Source: Lachnospiraceae bacterium
GTDB taxonomy: Bacteria; Bacillota; Clostridia; Lachnospirales; Lachnospiraceae
Direction of reading: 5' to 3'
NCBI GenBank assembly: GCA_910575775.1
Contig: CAJTEY010000003.1
Span: forward strand, 1-64,000
Length of the DNA: 64,000 bases
This document shows, one piece after another, positions 12,012 to 57,182 of the stretch. Positions within the stretch are counted from its first letter, which is position 1; each line of letters starts with the position of its first letter. The translations under genes were made by a program, and so were the position numbers. The notes beneath the pieces were generated by a model. The model made no database searches, was not told where the DNA came from, and worked only from the letters and a program-made list of their open reading frames with translations.

Positions 12012-12203
12012 ATGGATATTGCATCATTATCTATGGCCATGTCCAGCGCCAAGACAAATGACGCCTTCGGCGTAGCAATGCTTGCCAAATCTCTGGATCA
12101 GGCAGAAACCACAGGCAGCCAGGTTGTCGGCATGATGGATGCGGCAGCAATGGAACTGTCCGTCAATCCCCACATCGGCGGAAACTTTGATATGACAGTT
12201 TAA
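12012..12203 (+). CDS. YjfB-family small protein (putative motility protein family)
   Basis: A 63-residue protein starting MDIASLSMAMSS and ending VNPHIGGNFDMTV. Both ends match the pattern I know from Bacillus subtilis YjfB (start MDIAALSM, end QPHLGGNLDI), a family labelled putative motility protein. The ATG at 12012 is chosen because it gives the conserved start; a longer frame adds eight residues. It is one of only two plus-strand genes here, monocistronic, with its own promoter and terminator. No flagellar gene is nearby, and the molecular function is unknown. Confidence 0.8.
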   Translation: MDIASLSMAMSSAKTNDAFGVAMLAKSLDQAETTGSQVVGMMDAAAMELSVNPHIGGNFDMTV

Positions 12204-41620: not shown

Positions 41621-44600
41621 TTAATATTCAATCACCTTTTTCTCTATATCAAACTTCACCGTCACACTTCCGCCGTATTCTGGTGCAATCCCGGTAATGG
41701 TCACACTTCCCTTGTTCTTCCCGGATTGATTGTTTGCCCCATAGGACACCTCATAATCCTTCCCCTTCTGAAGTGTTTTTCCGTCTATGGTGTCACGAAC
41801 CGCAACCGCAGGCCTGACTTGTTTTCCCGTGTAGACTGCCTTTTCCGTCAAATCGATCTGTAAATTTGACTTTACAAGCTTCGTCCGATAGACCGGCAGA
41901 GGAACGACAATTTCTCCGTCCGCCTCATAGCTGCTGCCTTCTTTCGCCGTGATGACGGCTCTCGGCATCATCTCCCCCAGCTTTTCCTCCGAGCCGGAGC
42001 CCGCCTCGTATGCCGCCAGATACGCCAGGTATTCCTTCTGTGTGTTACACAGATACTGTATTTCATAATCCTTATTTACACGCAGTGCGCTCTTACCATC
42101 CGTCAGTTTCACCGCCGGTTTATACGCATACTCTTCCGCTTTATCCGGATTATAGGAAACGGCCGTCGCCTTGTACTGAATGTGTCCATCCTCATAGGCA
42201 TGTTTCAGACCGCTCTTCGTGATTCGGAATGTAACATCAAATTTGCCGGTGTAATTGCCCTTTCCCTTCACTGTCACTGTAGGCGGCTTTTCTGCGGAAG
42301 CCTCCGCCACCTCCTTATTGTTCTTATAAGCGAGCGTATAGTCTCTTCCGTTACGCAGGGCAAATCCTTCCCCGTTTGTAAGAACAATCTCTTCTACAGG
42401 CTTCACGCCCGCTTTGCAGTATGGGAACACCATATTTTCCATCCCGGCCGCGCAGTTTACCAGCTCCTTATCCGCAATGTCAACCGCCTCGATCCGAAAG
42501 CTCTTCTTAAAACTGCCGCTGTAGCCTTTCTCCTCTGCTCCCCTGAAAGTCATCGTGACATTACCCCTGTTAATATTCGGAGTGTAGGTTATGGTGTAAT
42601 CCGTTCCGTATCGCAGCGGTGTCTCTCCTCCATCAGGCTCCAGATAAGTCAATGCAGCATCGTTTTGGGTCACGGCCTTTCCCGTATACGTTTTATCTTC
42701 CACACCGCTCACCCGGACCGCTTTCGCCGAAAATGTCTTGCCCTTGATGGAGAAAGCAGCCGTCTTCGTCCCGACATACTCTCCGTTTCCGACAATGACA
42801 AGCTCCGCTTTGCCCACTTTCCCCGGAACAGGTTTCACTGTATAATCACGTCCCGGCTTTAAAATGACCGATCCGCACTTCACGGTAAAAGTATCCGGCG
42901 AAGCGGTCTCCGACGGGGTCAGCAGGATGTCCCCACCCGTATAAGCAATATTTTTCAGATTTTTGCCAAGTGTGATTTTGGCATTTTTCATCAGATGCGC
43001 CTTATCCGCCACAGAGATCTTCCGGCTGATACTTCCCATATAGTTGCCGGTTCCCTCAATCGTCAGATAAAATTCTCCTTCACATCCTTCTGGGATTTCC
43101 GCTCCCGGCAGTTCTTCTCCCTTCACCAGGCTGTTCCCTGCCCCGTCATGGGCATTTCCCGATATCAGCCGCAGTTCGAAGTCTGTCCCCTGTTTCATCC
43201 CTTTCCTATACTTAATGGATGAGAAAGGTTTCTGCGCCCTGCCCGCCGTCACAAGCTGTTCCGATACTTTCAGCGTAATCCCGGCCGCCGGTGTCTCCTG
43301 GCCGTCTCCGATCGACGCGCGGAGAATATTGAAATTCACCTTAACCGCATCCGCCGCATTGTTTTTAATTGCGTCTGTGTAATTTCCTTTACCAATAATC
43401 TCCACATAGGGAAGCTCTGGATTAAAGTTTGCTCCCTCCCCATTTCCTCTTTTCAGTTCACCGTCCTTATTGGCATTTATATTATTGTAGTATTTAATCT
43501 GATAATCCCTGCCGGATTTTAAAAGCACATCTCCGTCATATACACTGACCGCAGGCTTGCATGCACTCCCTGTATAGTACACGTCTCCAATTTCCTGGAA
43601 TGCAAAACCGCCTTCTTCTTTCCCGTTTTCAAGCCATTTGGCATAGAGCGTTATGTCTGTCTGCACAGTATCCGTCTCAAAATTCCACGCTTTCGTACAT
43701 GCCGCATCCCGATACCAGCCGTCAAACCGATATCCGTCGGCCTTCGGATCCGCCGGTCTTGCGACCGTTCCCCCTACCTTTATGCCAATCTGCGGCGCAG
43801 GCGCCGTTCCACGTCCCCTGACATCAAAAATGACTGTGCAGGAAGTCTCTTCCTGTGCCACGGTCAGTCTGCCGTTCTCATAAGTAATCGTGTAGTTTGC
43901 TCCCGCATCCGCCCCGGAAGGAATAATGTCATACCTCCCTGGCACCTTCGTATCTGTAACGCTGCAGGTTAATACAGGCTTTCTCAGCAGTTCGTCCGTT
44001 CCCATCAGCCCGATGATCTCATATTCGTATGCATTTTCAGGCGGAATGGCTGTTCCCACCCGGATCGTCTTATCCTTTGCACGAATCCGCAGCTCGGCAG
44101 GCCGAATCTCAAAGGTCATGCGGATGGTGCCGCTGTAAGAATTGATTCCTGTCACAACCGCTGTGGCCGTACCCGCATTTCGGTTATTCTCATAGGACAT
44201 CTCATAATCCTGCCCCTCCACAAGTACAATTCCTTTCTCCAAAGACACAGGATCCTGAGCCGATACCACGGCTTTCGGCCTCTGTTCCTCCCCGTTATAA
44301 ATAACGGTATCCACTTTCAGCTTTGCGTCAAAACCATGATTTCCCTCTCCCAAAACAGCGTTGCAGTATTTTTTCAGATTGGACAGCACCGTATCCGCAG
44401 AACAGTACGACAACGTATAATACTGCAGGCGGTTATCCGCATCAATATAGCAGATGATCGGCCAGCTGATCTGATTATTCCCAACCGCCCAGGCATATTT
44501 CAACATGCCGTCTGCATTGTTATCTCCTGTGTCATAGGAAAACACAATCTCCTCACAGCCGTACGTTTTCTGAAACGCTACGACATCCGCCTTTGACTGC

Positions 44601-46453
44601 TTCGTCACTTCTATGGCACAAATGTCTATCCCGCTAAAGCTGCCGATTTTGCCGCTGATTTCTCTGATGGTCCCCCGGCTGTTGCCGCATGTATTGCTGT
44701 AGAAAATCAAGAGCTTCGGCCTGCCCTCCGCAGATGAACTGATCGTCGTATCATCCAGCGCGGTAAAGTGCAGTAACGGGTTGTCAAGATTCAGCGCCTT
44801 ATCCTCTTCAACCGGCGGATCCGGCTCCACGCTTCCTGCGTCAATGACAGCCTCCAGCACCGTTTCCTTCGCGAATCCCAGTTCGTTCGGATCTTTGTGC
44901 AGAGCATAGAGCACCTTCCCACGGCTAAGTCCGCTGCCATATATGTAGCCGTCCGTCGTGTCGGCTGTAAACTCTGCTTTCTGATCCGTCCCGTCCATGG
45001 CAATGCTGTAAATCTTCGATTTATCATTATAGTAGAGGCGGTCGCCTATCCGAAACAGACCAGAATAAACTCCCTGCCAGGTTCCCCCGCCTCCCCACAC
45101 GATCCAGGGATCTATATACGTTACCACCGTGCCGGCCGCCGTGATATCGCTCAGACTGGTTTTTTTTATGCAGGGCCGCCCGCTATAAGCAGTATAATAG
45201 CAGCTCTCTTCCGCAATCACCAGCGGCGATCTGCAGCCCGCCCAGAAGGCATTGTCAAAGCGGGTGCTTACGGCTTTGAAATCCACCACCTGACTGCCCT
45301 TCGTCACCTGCCAGTTATAATGCCCCTCAAAAGCAGCGTCGCTGCGGAGCATGTAGTTATGCCCGGCACCGCCGACACGGTCCCATGTGGGATCGTCCCA
45401 GGTGACATCCACCTGGTAATACTCCCCGTCCAGCACGACCATGTTCCACGCATGTGCCATCGCTGTGCTGGTAACCATATAGCATTCAATCCCCTGCTGG
45501 TTCAGAAGGTATTTATAAGCCAGGGCATAGCCGTCGCACACTGCGGTGCCATCGGCAAAAACACCGTAAGTCGAATGGGACTTATTCGGAACCTTATCGG
45601 CACCCAGATCCAGATTCTCCTTGTCGTACTCACAGTTGACCGCCAGATAGTCGTGCAGGGTTATGATCTTTTCCAGATCACTCATACCCGGGCGCACGGA
45701 TGCCAGCGCCGCATTCGCACCGCTCCGCCATTTGGCATCGTCAAGCCCTTCTTCATATTCAATCATTATCATCGCTACCACGGACTGCATGGATGAATAT
45801 CTAAATCCCTTCTTGACGAAATAGAGATCCGGATTCTCGTTCAGCACCCCGACGACCACATTTCCTATATCCGTCACGGGAATACCAAATTCTGCAACAC
45901 TGATCTGTGTCCTTCTCGCCCGCATCTGCTCATACAGATATTCCTCCACCTCCGATTCGCTGTATGCGGATATGGCGTACGGTGAATCAGAATCCTGTCC
46001 CGAAGGAGCGCCGCCAAACTGGTATGCGCCCTCCAGCTCGGCCTCCACCCAGACCTCCTGCTCCCCGGCTGTCAGCAGGTCATTTCCAGAAACCTGTAAA
46101 TCATTTTCGGAAACAGTCACATTGTCCGCAGGCTTCTCCTCCTGTGCAGGCGGTTCTGTCTGCGCAGGCGTATCTTCTCCCGCTTCTTCATTCCCGTCCA
46201 CAGGCTCCTGGTCGTCCTGTGTCCCAGGCTTCTCCCCTTCCCCGGCATCCGTCATCTCCCCGCCAGGCTCCTGTTTCGTTTCCCCATCATCCTGCATCTG
46301 CCCGGGTTCCTGCACAGTGGATTCCTCTTCCGTTATGTTCTCCTGCGGGATCGGCAGTTCCTGCGCATAGGCGATATTCGCCGGAAGCTGTACCGAGGAA
46401 AGCACCAGTATGGCTGATAGAATACCCGCTAAAAATCTTTTACCTGCTTTCAT
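41621..46453 (-). CDS. Giant secreted protein with transglutaminase-like, thioredoxin-like and Ig/MBG repeat domains
   Basis: A ~1610-residue exported protein. In order: signal peptide (to about 31), Glu/Pro/Gly-rich linker with VSENDLQVSGND, transglutaminase/protease-like domain with Cys306 (GTAVCDGYA), His334 (MAHAWNMV) and Asp349 (VDVTWDD), a thioredoxin-like domain whose motif is CGNSRG instead of CXXC, an InlB-type repeat (VIFDVRGRGT...DGWYRD), and at least seven Ig/MBG-like repeats with YTGK...GKDYEVSYxNN motifs. No LPXTG is seen. Start ATG 46453 follows GGAGGAG. It is probably a surface adhesin or wall-processing protein; the transglutaminase triad looks intact. Confidence 0.85.
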   Translation of the reverse strand: MKAGKRFLAGILSAILVLSSVQLPANIAYAQELPIPQENITEEESTVQEPGQMQDDGETKQEPGGEMTDAGEGEKPGTQDDQEPVDGNEEAGEDTPAQTEPPAQEEKPADNVTVSENDLQVSGNDLLTAGEQEVWVEAELEGAYQFGGAPSGQDSDSPYAISAYSESEVEEYLYEQMRARRTQISVAEFGIPVTDIGNVVVGVLNENPDLYFVKKGFRYSSMQSVVAMIMIEYEEGLDDAKWRSGANAALASVRPGMSDLEKIITLHDYLAVNCEYDKENLDLGADKVPNKSHSTYGVFADGTAVCDGYALAYKYLLNQQGIECYMVTSTAMAHAWNMVVLDGEYYQVDVTWDDPTWDRVGGAGHNYMLRSDAAFEGHYNWQVTKGSQVVDFKAVSTRFDNAFWAGCRSPLVIAEESCYYTAYSGRPCIKKTSLSDITAAGTVVTYIDPWIVWGGGGTWQGVYSGLFRIGDRLYYNDKSKIYSIAMDGTDQKAEFTADTTDGYIYGSGLSRGKVLYALHKDPNELGFAKETVLEAVIDAGSVEPDPPVEEDKALNLDNPLLHFTALDDTTISSSAEGRPKLLIFYSNTCGNSRGTIREISGKIGSFSGIDICAIEVTKQSKADVVAFQKTYGCEEIVFSYDTGDNNADGMLKYAWAVGNNQISWPIICYIDADNRLQYYTLSYCSADTVLSNLKKYCNAVLGEGNHGFDAKLKVDTVIYNGEEQRPKAVVSAQDPVSLEKGIVLVEGQDYEMSYENNRNAGTATAVVTGINSYSGTIRMTFEIRPAELRIRAKDKTIRVGTAIPPENAYEYEIIGLMGTDELLRKPVLTCSVTDTKVPGRYDIIPSGADAGANYTITYENGRLTVAQEETSCTVIFDVRGRGTAPAPQIGIKVGGTVARPADPKADGYRFDGWYRDAACTKAWNFETDTVQTDITLYAKWLENGKEEGGFAFQEIGDVYYTGSACKPAVSVYDGDVLLKSGRDYQIKYYNNINANKDGELKRGNGEGANFNPELPYVEIIGKGNYTDAIKNNAADAVKVNFNILRASIGDGQETPAAGITLKVSEQLVTAGRAQKPFSSIKYRKGMKQGTDFELRLISGNAHDGAGNSLVKGEELPGAEIPEGCEGEFYLTIEGTGNYMGSISRKISVADKAHLMKNAKITLGKNLKNIAYTGGDILLTPSETASPDTFTVKCGSVILKPGRDYTVKPVPGKVGKAELVIVGNGEYVGTKTAAFSIKGKTFSAKAVRVSGVEDKTYTGKAVTQNDAALTYLEPDGGETPLRYGTDYTITYTPNINRGNVTMTFRGAEEKGYSGSFKKSFRIEAVDIADKELVNCAAGMENMVFPYCKAGVKPVEEIVLTNGEGFALRNGRDYTLAYKNNKEVAEASAEKPPTVTVKGKGNYTGKFDVTFRITKSGLKHAYEDGHIQYKATAVSYNPDKAEEYAYKPAVKLTDGKSALRVNKDYEIQYLCNTQKEYLAYLAAYEAGSGSEEKLGEMMPRAVITAKEGSSYEADGEIVVPLPVYRTKLVKSNLQIDLTEKAVYTGKQVRPAVAVRDTIDGKTLQKGKDYEVSYGANNQSGKNKGSVTITGIAPEYGGSVTVKFDIEKKVIEY

Positions 46454-46608
46454 TGTTGTCTCCTCCCTATTCATGGCATGTTCTGATCACCTTGGCCAGG
46501 CCATACCTCTTTGTCGCCGAAGACTCTTCCTCAAGGCTCAATTCATTCTGTAATCAGCATATTATGTTGCAGGCGCAAAGTCAACCTATTGGACAAGGGC
46601 AAATGAAA

Positions 46609-46659: not shown

Positions 46660-49600
46660 TTATACATAAACTGTTTTAACTCTGAAATATCCGATAGTAT
46701 ATACCGGCTTGCCATTATACATTTTGGGATACCAGATAGCATATATCCCATTATCTGTTGCCTTCAGGTTGGAACCATCTTTCAATTTTATGGTAAGGCT
46801 CATTTTTGCAAGATCGGATACCTTAAGTTTATCGAATGCAGTAGGATCATCGTCCACGAAAAGGGTCGTCTTAGTATCGCTTGTCGGCATAGGCTGATAC
46901 AAGGCATAATACATTCCAGTCTTGGAGTTAAAGACGCGCTGCTTTCTAAGCCCGCAATTTTTAGGGCCGGTCACTGTAGCAGTACAGTAATCAGGAAGTA
47001 TTTCTGCCCTACTCCAGTCGGGTTTTCCTTTACTGTCCTTATATGCGGTCGCTACGATATAAAAGTATCCGTTCCAGCTGTAATCATCGACATACTCTAA
47101 AACAATCTTTGCCGCAATATAATTAGGCCAAATATACAGGCTGAATTCATTTGAGGTAACACCACTGCCATCCAAAGCTGTTGCCTGAACAGTGACTACA
47201 CCACCGGGAGGTACATCCTTATCCACAGAAACTGTACCGTTTTTGTCGATAGACACTTTGTCCGCAGCTACATCTTCACATCCGACTATTTTCCATTCAA
47301 CTTTGCTGTTTGCCGGTTTTCCATAATTGCTATAGTATTTAGCTGTCAATTTCATCTTTTTGCCCACAGCGATGTGACCGACATTGCCATCTGTGGAGCC
47401 GATCACAAGCTTAGACATCGGCACTGTCACCGTCACCGCACAGGTTGCCTTCTTGTTGCTGCCATCCGCAGCGGCACAGGTAATGGTTGCCTTGCCCTGT
47501 GCTCTGGCTGTGATCTTACCATCTTTATCTACGGAAGCAATAGACGGCGCGCTGCTGGTCCAGGTAATCAAGGGATCCGTCAGATCCTGCTCTGCACCGC
47601 CATTCTTTTTGCCTTTTACAGTGGCCTTCAATTCAGCTGTTGTGTTCTGCGTAGCACTTGTTTTAGCCGGGAACAAGGTCAGCTTTTTCTCGTTGAGGGT
47701 AATTTTCGTAATTTCCTCATCCACAATCGTGATCGGGTGACTTACTCTCTCCGTCACCCCGCCAAGACCGTCCGCTGCTTCAACCATTATGTAGTATTTT
47801 TCTCCAGCCTTGACATCTCTTGTCGTAGTGACTTTTCCGTTGGTTGTGCCTACCTTGACCATCCCATCTTTGTTACCGTTGTTGTTTACGCCCCATGTCA
47901 CTTTCTTATTGCTGGCATTTGCGGGGTATACCTTAGCCGTGAGCGTAATGCCTTTTCCGGCCGCCACTTTTTCAGACCCGATTATCTCAATCCTTGTGAC
48001 GGGCTGTACGACTATCACCTTGTAAGATGCGCTCTTATTACCGCCGTCGTTGGAAGTTGCCTTGATGGTTGCTTTACCGGGCGCAACAGCAGAGATAACA
48101 CCATCATCAGAAACTCTGGCAACCTTGTTGTCGCTGCTAGACCAGACTACTTCCGCAAGGGCTTCCTCCCCTTTGAGTTCCGTCTTTACTTTGTTGGCAT
48201 CTGTCGTAGTTACAACGAGACAGTCTGCCAGCTTAATAACTTTTTTGTCGCCATCCACCGTTGTGCTATCCGTTGTCTTTATGCTCGTTGCCTTGGGCGC
48301 TTTTGCAGTCGCAGGATCGACAAAAGCGACCTTTGTGACAGCAGATGTCGTGATTACAGTAAGATTAAAATCATCGGACTTACCATCAAATTTTATCCCA
48401 TCGGCTCCGACAGCCGTAGCGGTAACCTTGTATACCCCTTCTTTCGTTTCTTTTTTAGTTTTCACCGTGCCGTTTGATACCGTAATGCCCGCAGCCTTTG
48501 CCGCATCATCCACAGTCCACTGCACTTTCGTGGAAACCGCGTAAGAAGGCGCGACAGTGGCAGTCAGTTTCAAGCTCTTTCCGGCAACCACTTTCTTTAC
48601 ATTGCTGACAGACTCTACGGTTACATCATTAGGAACTGGTGTCAGTTTCACGGTTTTGGAAGCTGCCTTGCTGGCCATGCCGGTAGTCGGATTGACAGCG
48701 ATAGCTTTAATGGTTTTGCTCTTAGCGCCGCCCAGTTCTATCTGACTACCGATCTGATATGGCTCCTCGTTGTCCGCATTTGTGATAACACCGTTTTTAA
48801 AAGCGGGCGTTTTGCCGCTTGTGGAGTAATAAATATCGATGCCTACGGCAGTTTTCGCAGAGAGGGTAACCATCACTGACTCTGCCATGTAGTTTTTACC
48901 AGTTTTGTCCATCGGTGTTTCAGCAATAGTAATTTCCGGTGCATCCGGCGCCGTCATATCGGTCGCAAGCTTCAAGACACCCGGTAAATAAGTCGTGCCT
49001 GCACCCATGCCGGAAGTGGTGCATTTCGTAGTGGAAGACTTCATAGCAGAGAGAAGTGCGTCCACTCTGCTCTTCCCCTGTTTGTTGCGGATGTCTTCCC
49101 TCGCGGAAAGGATAACCGCCGCCGTGCCGGCCGCTGCCGGGGACGCCTGGCTGGTTCCGCTCATATAATCATATTTTCCGTAAGTGTATCCATCCTCTAC
49201 AAATCCTGCATTGGTAGTAGAGTAAATTTGCACACCAGGGAAGGACAATGTTACTGTGTTACCATAGCAGGAAAAAGATGCTCTTGTACTGTTCTCGTTT
49301 ACAGCGCCTACAGAAATTGTACTTGCGTAAGCCGCCGGATAGTTATTTCCATTGGTGTCGTCGTTTCCCGAAGAGGCAAAGATGGCTACACCTTTTTCAT
49401 AAGCATCTTTTACAACCTTTTCATACTGCGCATCATAGTTAGGACTTCCCAGACTCATGTTAATAATATCATATCCGTCCTGAGCAGCAGCCGTGATAGC
49501 CCGCATAACATCCGCAGAATCAGCACCATTATCTGCTGGAAATACACAGTATCCGCTTATCTTTGCATCGGGCGCGATACCGATACCGCCTTTGCCATTG

Positions 49601-50760
49601 TCATCAGCAGCGATAATACCCGCTACATGAGTACCATGGGTCTGATTGTCGGTATTGTGGGGTGCGCCATCTACATCGCCAACGAAATTTTTCCCGGCTT
49701 CCGCGTTCGCCGCCAGATCCTCGTGACTCATGTCAAGACCAGTATCGATAACAGCGACTCTGACACCCTGTCCTTTGTATCCGGCCGCCCAGGCATAGCG
49801 TGTGCCGATGTAATCATGCTGCCACTGCAGATTAAAATTCGGATCGGAAGGAGCAAAAGGATCCACCGTTGCATTTGTGTCTTCGTGCAAATATTGATAA
49901 TAATTAGGCCAAACAGCGGGCAGCTTAATCTCGGGCTCTGCAGCCGCAGCAATAGCCAGCGCAACTGTCGCTTTTTCCGGCAGACTGATTACCGCCACCT
50001 CATAAGAGTAACTGTCCAGTGTACCGCCGAAAGCTGCAGCAACCTGTTCCGCTTCCTCTTCGCTCTCTGCCAGATATACGACTTCACCGGGCACATATTC
50101 ACCCGTTACATCCGCGTAGTCTTCAATCGTAGCAGTCTCCTTTGGCTGAATTTGTACAACATCTCCTGCATAGGAGGCTAAAACTTTCTTGTCCGACAAC
50201 TGCTTTGAGGAAAATTTATAATCTTCGCCCAGTCCAGGGAAAATAGAGAAAATATTTATCTCATCTTCTGGAAGCGTGTTCTCGGATATGGTATTCTCTG
50301 AGACTGTGTTTTCAGAGACAGATTCCTCGTCTTCAACATCTTCCTCAACAGGATCTTCTTCCTCTTCATCCACGGAAGGCTGCTCTGGCTCTTCTTCCTC
50401 AGCGGGATCTTCTTCCTCCCCCTCAGAAGGCTGCTCCGAATCAGCGTCTTCTTCCTCGGTGGGATTTTCATTCTCTTCCCCCTCAGAAGGCTGCTCGGTA
50501 TTCTCCTCTTCCACATCTGGATCCTTTTCTTCCTCACCCTCGGAAGGCTGCTCCGGGCTGCTTACTTCTGTGGATTCATCGGATTCATTGTTTTCATTTT
50601 CTTCTTCAACAGGCTGTTCAGAAAGATCACTTTCAGCGTTTTCGACAGTCTCGCTGATAGGAGCAGGCTCAGATGCAGAGGTCGCCATCGCATCGATTCC
50701 TGCTGTCTGGAACAGCAGGGAGCCTGCTAAAAACAAGGATAATAATTTTGCTCTTTTCAT
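46660..50760 (-). CDS. Secreted subtilisin-like serine protease (S8) with acidic repeats, pro-region and Big2 domains
   Basis: A 1366-residue protein. Signal peptide about 1-28. Residues ~45-145 are Glu-rich with repeated EQPSEGEEE units, then VSENTVSENTISENT. The pro-region-like domain is about 221-290. The S8 domain has Asp339 (AVIDTGLD), His375 (THGTHVAGI), Asn466 (SSGN) and Ser537 (MSGTSQASP). The C-terminal half is a chain of Big2-like domains (WSSSDNKVARVSDDGVISA). All catalytic residues are present. AAGGAG precedes the ATG, 39 bp after a lipoprotein gene whose product resembles the pro-region. It has no LPXTG. It is likely a surface-associated or released protease; the substrate is unknown. 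Confidence 0.92.
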   Translation of the reverse strand: MKRAKLLSLFLAGSLLFQTAGIDAMATSASEPAPISETVENAESDLSEQPVEEENENNESDESTEVSSPEQPSEGEEEKDPDVEEENTEQPSEGEENENPTEEEDADSEQPSEGEEEDPAEEEEPEQPSVDEEEEDPVEEDVEDEESVSENTVSENTISENTLPEDEINIFSIFPGLGEDYKFSSKQLSDKKVLASYAGDVVQIQPKETATIEDYADVTGEYVPGEVVYLAESEEEAEQVAAAFGGTLDSYSYEVAVISLPEKATVALAIAAAAEPEIKLPAVWPNYYQYLHEDTNATVDPFAPSDPNFNLQWQHDYIGTRYAWAAGYKGQGVRVAVIDTGLDMSHEDLAANAEAGKNFVGDVDGAPHNTDNQTHGTHVAGIIAADDNGKGGIGIAPDAKISGYCVFPADNGADSADVMRAITAAAQDGYDIINMSLGSPNYDAQYEKVVKDAYEKGVAIFASSGNDDTNGNNYPAAYASTISVGAVNENSTRASFSCYGNTVTLSFPGVQIYSTTNAGFVEDGYTYGKYDYMSGTSQASPAAAGTAAVILSAREDIRNKQGKSRVDALLSAMKSSTTKCTTSGMGAGTTYLPGVLKLATDMTAPDAPEITIAETPMDKTGKNYMAESVMVTLSAKTAVGIDIYYSTSGKTPAFKNGVITNADNEEPYQIGSQIELGGAKSKTIKAIAVNPTTGMASKAASKTVKLTPVPNDVTVESVSNVKKVVAGKSLKLTATVAPSYAVSTKVQWTVDDAAKAAGITVSNGTVKTKKETKEGVYKVTATAVGADGIKFDGKSDDFNLTVITTSAVTKVAFVDPATAKAPKATSIKTTDSTTVDGDKKVIKLADCLVVTTTDANKVKTELKGEEALAEVVWSSSDNKVARVSDDGVISAVAPGKATIKATSNDGGNKSASYKVIVVQPVTRIEIIGSEKVAAGKGITLTAKVYPANASNKKVTWGVNNNGNKDGMVKVGTTNGKVTTTRDVKAGEKYYIMVEAADGLGGVTERVSHPITIVDEEITKITLNEKKLTLFPAKTSATQNTTAELKATVKGKKNGGAEQDLTDPLITWTSSAPSIASVDKDGKITARAQGKATITCAAADGSNKKATCAVTVTVPMSKLVIGSTDGNVGHIAVGKKMKLTAKYYSNYGKPANSKVEWKIVGCEDVAADKVSIDKNGTVSVDKDVPPGGVVTVQATALDGSGVTSNEFSLYIWPNYIAAKIVLEYVDDYSWNGYFYIVATAYKDSKGKPDWSRAEILPDYCTATVTGPKNCGLRKQRVFNSKTGMYYALYQPMPTSDTKTTLFVDDDPTAFDKLKVSDLAKMSLTIKLKDGSNLKATDNGIYAIWYPKMYNGKPVYTIGYFRVKTVYV

Positions 50761-50799
50761 TTTTCTCCTTCTCTTTCTTTTTAGATAATAAAACTTTGT

Positions 50800-51189
50800 T
50801 TATTGTTCCATATAGAGTTCTTGTTCATAATTTTGGATCAATGCAGGGTATTCATTTTCAATGCCTAATTCTATGAGCTCCTGGGGATTTTTGTCGGTCG
50901 TGTAAGTAGCTACTCCATAAGAGTAGGAGCTTAATTCAATTCCATATAACTCGGCAATCTCCTCCGCTTCTTCTTGGTTGTCCGCCAGCGCAGTTAATTC
51001 CGTGGTTGTTGATCCATCATTTTCTGAGGATTCAACAGAGAAATCATTTTTGTCTACCAGTTTCTGCAGCTTTGGTATATTATCGTCAACTGCTACTTTT
51101 GTTAACTCCTTTTTTCCACCGCAGCCCCATAGACCCACAGCGGCAAGCAAGATAAGTCCCAGTACAAGGACGACTATTTTCATCTTCAA
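50800..51189 (-). CDS. Small lipoprotein with a subtilase pro-region-like domain
   Basis: A 129-residue lipoprotein. The signal peptide ends at a lipobox-like VGLWGC (Cys23). Residues 64-126 align without gaps to the pro-region of the subtilase encoded next: LADNQEEAEEIAELYG here against LAESEEEAEQVAAAFG there, then LSSYSYGVA against LDSYSYEVA, giving 15 identities in 32 positions. The TTG at 51189 has AGGAGG seven bases upstream and is preferred; an ATG lies two codons later. I infer a membrane-anchored inhibitor or folding helper for the protease, in the manner of I9-type propeptides acting in trans. No exact family is recognised. Confidence 0.8.
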   Translation of the reverse strand: MKMKIVVLVLGLILLAAVGLWGCGGKKELTKVAVDDNIPKLQKLVDKNDFSVESSENDGSTTTELTALADNQEEAEEIAELYGIELSSYSYGVATYTTDKNPQELIELGIENEYPALIQNYEQELYMEQ

Positions 51190-51468: not shown

Positions 51469-52242
51469 TCACTCTGTTTTCAATTTATTCACTTCCTCCA
51501 AAGGAAGTCCTACGTACTCAGAGATTTTTTCAAGTGTCAGCATTCCATCTGATAACATTCTCTTAGCAACTTCTTTTAATGATTCATTTCTCATATCTTC
51601 CATTACTTTACACATCTCCTCCACCCCTTTCGGATTCTCTTTCAGATATCGTGTACGTTCCGCCATAAGTTCAAAATTCATATCATCTGCGCTGCTACAA
51701 TTAAAATCGTGCATAAGTTTTCCAATATCCGAATCTCCACGATATTGACCATTCACATAAAGGATATGTTCCCCATCTTCAAATGGCTTATCCGTTGCAA
51801 GATTAATCCGCTCAATCGGATAAATCGGCATCCCTTTACCATAAAAATCTTTCTCAGTAATAAAAATTGTGTAAGTATCTGGTAATTCTCTAAATTCCTG
51901 TCCCGAGCGGAGATTCTCTACGTCCATCACACTGGAATGATATCTCGCCCTATGAGGATCTGCTCCCTTTTCCTGCCTTTGAATTTCCAAATCATATCTT
52001 TTTCCATCTGCATCCGTTCCATATGCGTCCAGACAGATCGAATGTGCCCCGGCAAGCCTTTTCATATCCTTTTGCGTTTCACAGTCAGTAATAATCAAAT
52101 CCTGTTTATCCGTAATAATACGCAACACAAACTCTGCCAGAGGTATGTTATCTTTAAAAAGGCAACGCATGAAATCATCATCAATAGGACGCAAGTCTCG
52201 CAAACGTTGTAAATCTTCCTGACGCTTTCGCTCCGTCGCCAT
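51469..52242 (-). CDS. Rpn family recombination-promoting nuclease/putative transposase (PD-(D/E)XK)
   Basis: A ~257-residue protein of the PDDEXK transposase-like family. It has the typical start LRPIDDDFMRCLFKDN, then VLRIITDKQDLIITDCETQ, the catalytic strand SICLDAYGTDADGKRYDLEIQ (Asp and Glu-x-Gln) and the late YVNGQY segment. The C-terminal part ends in a helical ISEYVGLPLEEVNKL. Family members act as nucleases in recombination and are often horizontally spread. GGGAG five bases before ATG 52242 supports the start. It has its own promoter (52283-52311) and terminator and is flanked by direct repeats. Confidence 0.88.
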   Translation of the reverse strand: MATERKRQEDLQRLRDLRPIDDDFMRCLFKDNIPLAEFVLRIITDKQDLIITDCETQKDMKRLAGAHSICLDAYGTDADGKRYDLEIQRQEKGADPHRARYHSSVMDVENLRSGQEFRELPDTYTIFITEKDFYGKGMPIYPIERINLATDKPFEDGEHILYVNGQYRGDSDIGKLMHDFNCSSADDMNFELMAERTRYLKENPKGVEEMCKVMEDMRNESLKEVAKRMLSDGMLTLEKISEYVGLPLEEVNKLKTE

Positions 52243-52282
52243 TAATACTCCCATCTGTCCTTTCCCTCGCTTTTATAATTTT

Positions 52283-52345: not shown

Positions 52346-52396
52346 TCCTATAATCATCCCTGTTCCCAGGAATGTCCTTTAAAACTTAAACTTTTT
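52323..52396. repeat. Direct repeat copy containing the dnaJ 3' end and terminator
   Basis: The partner of 51395-51468. It includes the last codons of dnaJ (KKKFKF) and the terminator. Divergence between the copies suggests the duplication is old. Confidence 0.55.
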
Positions 52397-53560
52397 CTTC
52401 TTTTTCCCGCCGCCTCCCGTCGGTTCCTCGGATGCGTCGGAAGTTATGTTCTTAGCCGCATTCAGACTGTCGCCCGTGCACTCGTCAAACTGCTTCAAGA
52501 GATCTTTTGCCTCATGGGAAAGCTTGTCGGGCACCTGCACCACAAGCGTCACGTAATGATCGCCGCGCACATCTTTATTTCTGAGAGAGGGCACGCCCTT
52601 TCCTTTTAAGCGGACCTTTGTGTCAGTCTGCGTTCCGGCCTTCACCTCGTAAATTACCCTGCCGTCCACGGTGTCGATCACGATATCGCCGCCCAACGCC
52701 GCAACGGCAAAGGACATCGGTACGGTGGAATAAATATTTTCATCCTGCCGCTGGAAAATAGGATGTCTTCCCACCACCACTTCAACCAGAAGATCACCTC
52801 TGGGGCCGCCGTTTGAACCAGGCTCGCCCTTATCGCGGATACGGACGCACTGTCCGTTGTCAATACCCGCAGGAATGGAAACCTGTATCTTCTTTTTATT
52901 TGCAATATAGCCCGTGCCTCGGCAGTCAGGACATTTATCCTTAATCACCTTACCCGTGCCATGACAGTCGGGACAGGTCTGCACATTGCGCACCGTACCA
53001 AAGAAAGACTGTGAGGTAAATACCACCTGCCCCTTGCCGCCGCACTTGCCGCATGTCTCGGGACTGGTTCCCGGTTTCGCTCCCGTGCCGTGGCAGGAAG
53101 TGCACTCGTCCTTGAGCGTCAGCTCAATCTCCCGCTCCACGCCGAAAACCGCCTCTTCAAAGGTGATTCGGACGCTGGTTCTGATATTGGCGCCTTTCAT
53201 AGGGCCGTTGCCCCTTCCGCCGCCGCGTCTGCTGCCGCCAAAAAGATCACCAAAAATATCTCCGAAGATGTCACCGAAATCTGCGCCGTTGAAATCAAAG
53301 CCGCCGAAACCGCCTGCACCGCCCGCACCGTCAAAGGCAGCATGACCATACTGGTCATACTGTCTCCTCTTCTCCGGGTCACTCAAAACGGCATAGGCCT
53401 CTGACGCCTCCTTAAATTTCTTTTCCGCCTCCGCGTCCCCCGGATTCATGTCGGGGTGGTATTTCTTCGCCAGAACTCTGTATGCTTTTTTTATGGCGGC
53501 GTCATCGGCGCTTTTCTCTACACCGAGCACCTCATAATAGTCCCGTTTTTGTTCTGCCAT
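52379..53560 (-). CDS. dnaJ: Chaperone protein DnaJ
   Basis: A 393-residue type I Hsp40: J domain with YHPDMNPGD (HPD), a Gly/Phe-rich linker ([21 protein letters not shown]), a zinc domain with four CXXCXGXG repeats ([32 protein letters not shown]), and the C-terminal substrate domain. It stimulates DnaK ATPase. It is the last gene of the hrcA operon, 34 bp after dnaK. Confidence 0.98.
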
Positions 53561-53594
53561 GATCTATATCCTTCCCTTTATTTCGCTCAGCCGG

Positions 53595-55478
<1,884 letters not shown>

Positions 55479-55495
55479 CTATCGCTCTCAAACTG

Positions 55496-56104
55496 TTATT
55501 GTACAACCGCAACCATACTGTGTCTGACGACGCTGTCCCTGTAAGTATATCCCTTCTGCAGCTCCTGCGCGACCGTGCCGGACTCAAACTCCTCACTCTC
55601 CGTCTGCATGACTGCATTATGGAACTCGGGGTTAAATTCCTCCCCAACCGCCGGGATCGGTTTCACATCCAGATTCTCAAGCTCCGTCATAAGCTGCTTG
55701 TAAATCATCTGCATGCCCTGCGCAATGGCGCCGTCCTTCTCTTCCTCCGGCACACTGGCAAGCCCTCTCTCAAAATTGTCCACCACGGGCAGAATCTTTT
55801 CGATCACGCTCTTTGCCCCGGTCTCAAACATCGCCGCTTTTTCTTTCTCGGTGCGTTTGCGGAAATTGTCGAACTCCGCCATCTGACGTTTTACCCTGTC
55901 TTCCAGCTCTTCCACTTTCTCTTTCAGGGCATCCTGCTTTTTGTCCTTTTTCTTCTTTTCTTTCTTATCGCTCTTAGCCGCCTTCTCTTCAGCTCCTGCC
56001 GAAGGCTCCCCGGCTGCCTCCTCCTTTGGTGTCTCCGCTTCCTGCTGCGCCATATCCTGCTCTTCCAGCTCTTTTTCCTGTTTATCTTTTTCCTCTGCTG
56101 CCAC
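55496..56104 (-). CDS. grpE: Nucleotide exchange factor GrpE
   Basis: A ~202-residue protein with an acidic Lys/Glu-rich N-terminal tail, a long coiled coil (VEELEDRVKRQMAEFDNFRKR) and the C-terminal beta domain (VGEEFNPEFHNAVMQTES, VAQELQKGYTYRDSVVRHSM). It releases ADP from DnaK. The probable start is GTG at 56104, nine bases after AAAGGA; an ATG three codons upstream abuts the RBS directly. Confidence 0.95.
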   Translation of the reverse strand: MAAEEKDKQEKELEEQDMAQQEAETPKEEAAGEPSAGAEEKAAKSDKKEKKKKDKKQDALKEKVEELEDRVKRQMAEFDNFRKRTEKEKAAMFETGAKSVIEKILPVVDNFERGLASVPEEEKDGAIAQGMQMIYKQLMTELENLDVKPIPAVGEEFNPEFHNAVMQTESEEFESGTVAQELQKGYTYRDSVVRHSMVAVVQ

Positions 56105-56156
56105 TGTAATCATTCCTTTCTGTTTGGCTATGCCGTTCCGTTCTGCGATCGGCCTT

Positions 56157-57182
56157 TTACTTCTTATATAAATCATCCAGCTGATGCTTTAACAGCCTGA
56201 GATTGCTCACAACCTTCTCATAATCCATTCTCTTAGGGCCGATGATTCCGATGGTTCCCTTCATGCCCTCGTCAAGCTCATAGGTTGCCGTTACAATGCT
56301 GCAGTCTTTCATGCCTGCCACCGGCGTCTCATCGCCGATGTAGACCTGTATGCCGGTGTTGTTTTCGCCGGAAAGATTATCCTGCACAAGCTCGCTCAAA
56401 AGCTGCTTTTCCTCAAAGGTCGTGATCAGTTCACTGGCTCTCTCGTGATCCGCGAGCTCAGGGTACTTGAAAAAGTTTTTTGTGCCGCTTGTATAGATCT
56501 CCAGATCCTCGTCAGCCTTGATCGCCTCCGCCACCGCATCTATGACATTCGCCACGATTTCACTGTGGATGCCCGCCTGTTGTTTCATGGCTGCAATCAT
56601 GCCCAGATTGATCTCCTCCAGGGATAAACCGTTTAGGTGGGTATTCAGGAGAATGTTCAGCTTCAAAAGCGTCTCGTCGCTCAATTCCTCCGAAACCGTA
56701 AGCATGGAGTTCTTGATCACATTTCCCTCCACCACAATCACCGCCAGAATCTGCCGTTCATCTACCCTGGAAAGCTGGATAAACTTCAGTTTACTGTGGT
56801 GGTACTGGGGCGCGGAGATCATCGCCGCGTACTCGGTATTGTTGGCAAGCACCTTGGCGGCCTGCTTGAGAAGGTGATCCATCTTATCCGCCTTCTCCAG
56901 AAGCATCTCCTTCATCTCCTCGACTTCCCGTTCCTTCTCCTCCATCATCTGATCCACGTAGAGGCGGTAGCCCTTGTCGGAAGGAATCCTGCCTGCAGAG
57001 GTGTGAGGCTGCAAAATATACCCCAGCTCCTCCAGATCCGCCATCTCGTTCCGAATCGTTGCAGAACTCAAATTTAAATCAGTATATTTGGAGATCGTTC
57101 GGCTGCCCACCGGCTCCCCTGTCTCCAGGTAGTTTCGGATGATGGCCTGCAATATGATATATTTTCTTTCGTCGAGCTGCAT
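56157..57182 (-). CDS. hrcA: Heat-inducible transcription repressor HrcA
   Basis: A ~341-residue repressor starting MQLDERKYIILQAIIRNYLE, with the winged-helix segment TISKYTDLNLSSATIRNEM and LGYILQPHTSAGRIPSDKGYR. It binds CIRCE and represses this operon. The ATG at 57182 is chosen because the longer frame would read through the CIRCE operator. GAGGGAAATGGG precedes the start. Confidence 0.97.
   Translation of the reverse strand: MQLDERKYIILQAIIRNYLETGEPVGSRTISKYTDLNLSSATIRNEMADLEELGYILQPHTSAGRIPSDKGYRLYVDQMMEEKEREVEEMKEMLLEKADKMDHLLKQAAKVLANNTEYAAMISAPQYHHSKLKFIQLSRVDERQILAVIVVEGNVIKNSMLTVSEELSDETLLKLNILLNTHLNGLSLEEINLGMIAAMKQQAGIHSEIVANVIDAVAEAIKADEDLEIYTSGTKNFFKYPELADHERASELITTFEEKQLLSELVQDNLSGENNTGIQVYIGDETPVAGMKDCSIVTATYELDEGMKGTIGIIGPKRMDYEKVVSNLRLLKHQLDDLYKK

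Follow-up and report, generated by a model that had tools for sequence, protein, structure and literature searches.

Propeptides are textbook cis-acting chaperones and inhibitors. In Aeromonas sobria, the kexin-like subtilase ASP and its external chaperone ORF2 are encoded by adjacent genes; the C-terminal region of ORF2 lies at the catalytic site of ASP, which ORF2 inhibits with a half-maximal inhibitory concentration (IC50) of 84.3 nM, and homologous operons are described for Vibrio, Shewanella, Chromobacterium, and Pseudoalteromonas (PMC5638518). The title of a paper cited in the same source calls ASP propeptide-deficient. Stand-alone propeptide-like inhibitors of the I9 type include SUB1-ProM of Plasmodium, whose gene adjoins subtilase genes, TgMIC5, the yeast peptidase B inhibitor, POIA1, and SPI-1 of Arabidopsis (PMC6993865), and in Myxococcus the subtilisin-like protease PopC is held back by its partner protein PopD (PMC6434023). 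Here we describe a gene pair of a Lachnospiraceae bacterium (GenBank assembly GCA_910575775.1), encoded in the first 64,000 nucleotides of contig CAJTEY010000003.1, the stretch of DNA referred to below as the window: a small putative lipoprotein and, directly downstream, a subtilase (S8) whose prodomain it resembles. Our favoured explanation, to which we give a little better than even confidence, is that the lipoprotein is a membrane-tethered paralogue of the prodomain of its neighbour, which would bind and inhibit that protease at the surface of the producing cell. The computations show homology, a predicted fold, anchor-like segments, conserved adjacency, and a sorting of partner types; binding, inhibition, self-protection, and co-transcription of the pair are inferred.

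The stand-alone domain and the prodomain of its neighbour

The gene pair comprises the following features, with positions counted in the window.

50800..51189, minus strand: gene of the stand-alone propeptide-like lipoprotein, an open reading frame (ORF) with a TTG start and an alternative ATG at 51183, two codons further in (129 amino acids from TTG, 127 from ATG)
51121..51132, minus strand: lipobox-like LWGC of the lipoprotein, read from the sequence and by a loose motif; the putative lipidated Cys is residue 21 from the ATG
50803..51009, minus strand: propeptide-like domain of the lipoprotein, from alignment, AlphaFold2 model, and tail position; it ends 9 residues past a conserved Asn
50761..50799, minus strand: gap of 39 bp between the two genes, with the protease gene downstream
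46660..50760, minus strand: gene of the secreted S8 subtilase, 1366 amino acids (ORF and Pfam; signal peptide by eye)
50266..50643, minus strand: N-terminal part of the protease, acidic and repetitive (about residues 40-165), read from the translation
49852..50106, minus strand: protease prodomain (residues 219-303), homologous to the stand-alone domain (PF22148; hhalign against the stand-alone profile)
49078..49773, minus strand: S8 catalytic domain, residues 330-561 (PF00082), with the Asp, His, and Ser catalytic motifs

A terminator scan found no terminator-like site in the 39-bp gap. Residues 65-96 of the lipoprotein align without gaps to residues 227-258 of the subtilase, with 15 of 32 positions identical including the motifs EEAE and SYSY-VA, and the similarity extends past one 4-residue gap to a YP/LP and an NY pair. 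An earlier note, drawn from the letters of the window, had reported both ORFs and each of these similarities, and all were confirmed; its suggestion that the stretch before the catalytic domain is a subtilase prodomain agrees with an independent match to PF22148 (Fervidolysin_NPro-like; residues 219-274, 22.9 bits against a cut-off of 21, and 27 bits for the domain alone). The Smith-Waterman score of 91 was reached by none of 2000 shuffled lipoprotein sequences compared with the first 310 residues of the protease (mean 36.6, maximum 72) and by none of 1000 compared with the whole protease (maximum 62). By contrast, BLASTP of the two sequences with composition adjustment gives no significant match here (16.5 bits, E = 1.2; 23 of 67 positions identical). 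Searching its whole genome of origin with the lipoprotein recovered the query itself and the prodomain of the neighbouring protease only (E = 3.3e-4); this genome has further S8 matches on four other contigs. Alignment by hhalign of a profile of six stand-alone copies with one of seven prodomains of S8 precursors gave a probability of 98.8% and a pairwise E value of 4.1e-17; the 64 aligned columns take in the NY pair. Judged by profile comparison, the stand-alone domain is homologous to known subtilase prodomains.

The window lipoprotein has no Pfam match up to E = 5, and hence none to PF22148 or to ORF_2_N. Among its relatives, which form two types as detailed below, three of five second-type copies scanned in full reach the PF22148 cut-off and two fall below it. 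At E values up to 1, matches to PF22148 were found in 6 of 42 copies and similarity to ORF_2_N in 13 of 42 (best 0.0012); the ORF_2_N scores of two full relative proteins, 12.3 and 12.5 bits, are below the cut-off of 29.2. No subtilase prodomain was among the matches of either profile to PDB sequences (5 up to E = 1; 6 up to E = 10), and the link to solved structures comes from fold search and not from sequence search.

The AlphaFold2 model of the lipoprotein, calculated from a two-row alignment, has the order E40-45 H49-59 E62-67 E70-75 H79-89 E94-96 (E, strand; H, helix) with a predicted local distance difference test score (pLDDT) of 86-91 by block over residues 41-90, a predicted prodomain fold. 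Different predicted folds would have spoken against the reading of the earlier note; the fold predicted for the lipoprotein does not. A model of the prodomain and catalytic part of the protease, also from a two-row alignment, had a pLDDT of 31 and was discarded as unusable. The fold search returned ORF2 of Aeromonas sobria as the top match of the lipoprotein model; it should be noted that the prodomain-like fold is also common to many unrelated domains.

A hydrophobic N-terminal segment is present in 43 of 44 copies, the exception being that of L115 (L codes denote loci and G codes genomes in the sampled sets). In the window lipoprotein this segment is followed by LWGC, a putative lipobox according to a loose in-house motif. 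A Trp at position -2 of a lipobox is unusual. Lipobox-like motifs were assigned to 12 copies by pattern and to the copy of L018 by eye, and the rest, L115 apart, have a single hydrophobic segment. Since most relatives carry such a segment and no lipobox, what the copies have in common is an apparent membrane anchor, which corrects the description of the earlier note as a lipoprotein cassette. Neither an LPXTG-like motif nor a C-terminal hydrophobic helix was found in any of the 56 prodomain-bearing proteases (one of which is cut at its C-terminal end), and the apparent anchor therefore sits on the copy and not on the enzyme.

The catalytic Asp, His, and Ser motifs are kept in all 56 of these proteases; the His motif has the usual string in 52 and reads HGSH, HGTHC, HGTNC, or HGSNC in the other four, with the His present. 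A common alignment has, close to where the prodomain ends, an Asn position at which 42 of 43 copies and 54 of 56 prodomains carry N or D; from there a copy continues for 4 to 39 residues (median 9; the copy of L108 is gapped there and unsure). The copies would end near the propeptide/catalytic boundary, where the propeptide tail enters the cleft, and an alignment by eye suggests that the conserved Asn is the counterpart of the helix-capping Asp/Asn described for subtilisin BPN' and SUB1-ProM (PMC6993865). Ratios of nonsynonymous to synonymous substitution rates (dN/dS) are 0.07-0.28 in 8 of the 10 pairs formed by five lipoproteins (the other two gave no computable value; most dS values exceed 1) and 0.07-0.17 in the four pairs that include the window lipoprotein, where a dS of 1.2-3.3 is near or past saturation. 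The stand-alone copy appears to be under purifying selection.

The window protease consists of a signal-like start (by eye), the acidic repetitive region, the prodomain, the S8 catalytic domain, and Big_2/Big-like repeats, the domains being assigned with Pfam. Its acidic repeats, all versions of EQPSEGEEE, lie after the signal peptide and before the prodomain and are directly followed by a SENTVSENTISENT run; the repeat region and the run are similar in the proteases of L014 and L015.

Codistribution with S8 genes and sorting of partner classes

The stand-alone profile matches 12 of 397 genomes of Lachnospiraceae. Nine of the 12 encode a stand-alone copy, spread over 7 of 334 sampled genera; G365 and G380 encode proteases with a related prodomain, with no copy detected in the profile listing or the loci examined, and L118 (G355), read as a protease precursor cut by a contig end, was left out of the copy count. 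In a family sample of 299 genomes, the prodomain profile (E up to 1e-4) matched six, each of which has a short-frame copy as well. Of 60 genomes in a genus sample, the copy profile (E up to 1e-3) picks out 30 and the prodomain profile (E up to 1e-5) the same 30, with no match to either in the remaining 30; being homologous, the two profiles cross-match, yet each of the 30 genomes shows a long and a short frame.

Every ORF of at least 60 amino acids in the loci was scored with the copy, prodomain, and catalytic-domain profiles. L081 was dropped as a duplicate of L014 (G399:C12 gives the same scores), and as L089 and one L094 copy (6906) contain ambiguous letters, L089 is left out of the tree and both out of one alignment, giving counts of 44, 43, and 42. 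For each of the 44 copies counted, an S8 gene is found no more than 540 bp away and in the same orientation; the nearest one lies downstream of the copy in 33 cases and upstream in 11. Every copy adjoins an S8 gene that bears a prodomain. Together with the joint occurrence in the genus sample, this shows that the pairing seen in the window is conserved in related genomes; a lack of such conservation would have spoken against the reading of the earlier note. The reverse does not hold throughout: 8 of 58 S8 ORFs longer than 300 amino acids in the examined loci have no copy within 700 bp, one of them also having no detected prodomain, and some of the eight sit in the same cluster or genome as a pair.

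In G233, prodomain matches in long frames lie on five contigs, yet one stand-alone copy was detected, and two extra loci examined in this genome hold an S8 gene without a copy. The clusters at L085, L094, L087, and L098 comprise two or three S8 genes each, with stand-alone copies placed between these genes or behind them, all on one strand. At L103 (6161-9072) and L106 (7998-12216), S8 genes are apparently split over two frames beside an intact pair.

Outside the Lachnospiraceae, no stand-alone copy was found in 246 genomes of the order or 299 of the phylum. The PF22148 prodomain family itself is common in the phylum (75 of 299 genomes); its matches in frames shorter than 250 amino acids number three, two of them broken S8 genes and the third ending near a contig end. 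Viral contigs held no relative, and a search of genome contigs yielded one, L014. Weak copy-profile matches in G534 (a frame of 628 amino acids) and G652 (380 amino acids) are unexplained and were not counted; a scan that recovered the window pair as positive control gave no prodomain or S8 profile match in either locus. The matches in G011, G029, G095, and G211 (E values of 1e-4 to 8e-4) have no S8 motif in their loci, were read as chance or signal-peptide matches, and were likewise left out of the counts.

Phylogenetic analysis placed each of the two copy types on one side of a branch, with support values of 99/99 and 97/93. The copies are also sorted by the class of their partner. Where an S8 gene lies downstream within 1500 bp, it encodes a clade-1 protease for all 11 lipoprotein copies and a clade-2 (16) or other (5) protease, in no case one of clade 1, for the 21 single-helix copies. 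The seven second-type copies have as nearest neighbours the seven proteases grouped as clade B from the tree, a weakly supported grouping (64/32) whose match to these copies is therefore partly by construction. L083 (near a contig end), the L085 copy at 12124, and L102 have no downstream protease in the stretch covered and follow a protease of another class. Four genomes (G418, G448, G414, and G370) have two types each, with each type kept with its class, and the three exceptions just named are found in G423 and G452. Distances among copies correlate with those among downstream prodomains (Mantel r = 0.73, n = 34, none of 5000 permutations as high), a correlation that common vertical descent of the locus may explain in part or in full.

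With respect to their origin, the second-type copies group with clade-B prodomains (support 70). A simpler tree groups the first-type copies with the prodomain of the L018 protease of G233 (support 98), which makes the nearest source of these copies unsure. Two separate origins of the copies from prodomains are favoured but not established; a single clade of copies was not rejected by the approximately unbiased (AU) test (p = 0.128; 70 columns, long branches).

Possible roles of the apparently tethered copy

In our favoured explanation, the lipoprotein would be a prodomain paralogue that ends at the propeptide/catalytic boundary and has its own export signal and membrane anchor. The exported protease would fold aided by its own prodomain, cleave it off, and leave the membrane. 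Working in trans, the tethered copy would dock on the catalytic domain by its beta-sheet face, its C-terminal tail reaching into the substrate cleft, and would inhibit its own protease at the membrane of the producer, as self-protection and as a brake; protease that escapes the membrane would be active elsewhere. Given the apparent purifying selection, the predicted prodomain fold, and the constant adjacency, the economical reading is that the copy binds the catalytic domain of its neighbour as a propeptide would. With a prodomain already part of the protease, a second, tethered one seems of more use as a brake at the membrane of the producer than as the only help in folding. More tentatively, and with confidence somewhat short of even, we suggest that cognate tethered propeptide paralogues are immunity proteins, one brake per protease clade, that arose at least twice in the Lachnospiraceae and would keep the enzyme silent at the producer surface and active on the surroundings.

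The closest fold match, ORF2, is a chaperone encoded beside its protease and an inhibitor as well (IC50 84.3 nM, PMC5638518), some copies have sub-threshold similarity to ORF_2_N, and the nearest S8 gene is downstream in 33 of 44 cases, so that the copy would be made first if the transcript is shared. These points would suit an external chaperone, an anchored copy that like ORF2 aids the folding of its neighbour at the membrane after export and inhibits it no more than transiently; as ORF2 is both chaperone and inhibitor, one such protein can do both. However, ASP is described as propeptide-deficient, whereas here the S8 protein neighbouring each copy bears a prodomain, and some related proteases have no nearby copy. 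We regard a chaperone as rather unlikely, if a serious alternative to the tethered inhibitor.

It is improbable that the copy serves chiefly in retention or presentation, tethering the protease or a complex to the membrane for local proteolysis with inhibition not its main role: the anchor-like segment on the copy and the lack of a C-terminal anchor on the protease would fit, but a tail that ends where the propeptide enters the active site suggests occlusion, and a prodomain fold would be superfluous for a pure tether. Least probable is a sensor or decoy that baits host or rival subtilases and not the neighbour, with adjacency stemming from duplication, for duplicated genes often remain adjacent, but the copies occur in seven genera, each beside a protease and on either side of it, and their divergence parallels that of the neighbouring prodomains (Mantel correlation), though vertical descent of the locus could suffice for this last point.

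Overall, the reading of the locus as a pro-region-like lipoprotein beside its subtilase, with which the earlier note began, is supported. In this gut bacterial lineage a pro-segment became a separate gene with an apparent anchor, while the protease keeps the original. If the copy is a brake, the pair shows how a gut commensal can secrete a protease and spare its own surface, and such pairs offer proteases and inhibitors matched by nature in which propeptide specificity can be studied; should it be a chaperone instead, it would represent a second, anchored route to subtilase maturation.

Genomic context and comparison with known systems

The pair lies downstream of dnaJ-, dnaK-, and grpE-like genes (assigned by eye; 52379-56176 of the window, same strand). 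At L014 no other ORF separates the copy from dnaJ, whereas in the window a PD-(D/E)XK transposase-like gene (51469-52254, PF12784) stands in between. The downstream gene at 41621-46474 of the window encodes 1617 amino acids with a signal-like start, an acidic region, a transglutaminase-like core, MBG_2 and List_Bact repeats, and, by eye, a thioredoxin-like stretch; at L014, a gene with a similar start comes after the protease.

Like ASP and ORF2, the closest bacterial precedent and one that the earlier note does not name, the window pair consists of adjacent genes with a separate protein for a subtilase, and ORF2 is the best structural match of the lipoprotein model. Unlike ASP, the window protease keeps its own PF22148 prodomain; unlike ORF2, the copy bears an anchor-like segment, shows sequence homology to the own prodomain of its partner, and stays below the Pfam cut-off for ORF_2_N. 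With the I9-type inhibitors the copy shares a small size, a predicted prodomain fold, and an ORF of its own outside the protease precursor. The earlier note had mentioned I9-type propeptides; as a correction, the Pfam family to which the prodomain belongs is Fervidolysin_NPro-like (PF22148). The stand-alone I9-type examples are eukaryotic, and the accessible part of their description mentions neither a membrane anchor nor one-to-one sorted pairing (PMC6993865). The Fervidolysin-type prodomain, the family of the window protease prodomain and of some second-type copies, was seen in longer frames in the phylum genomes outside the Lachnospiraceae, apart from the three short-frame matches described above. 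The likeness to PopC and PopD is that of a subtilisin-like protease with a separate partner protein, which here would restrain it.

An abstract-level search of the open-licence PubMed Central literature found no report of the copy/S8 cassette of the Lachnospiraceae. Its kind is already known, from stand-alone propeptide-like inhibitors in eukaryotes and from ASP/ORF2; new relative to the literature searched are the apparent anchoring in the membrane, the retention of a prodomain by the protease, the mutual sequence homology, and the sorted partner classes in the Lachnospiraceae.
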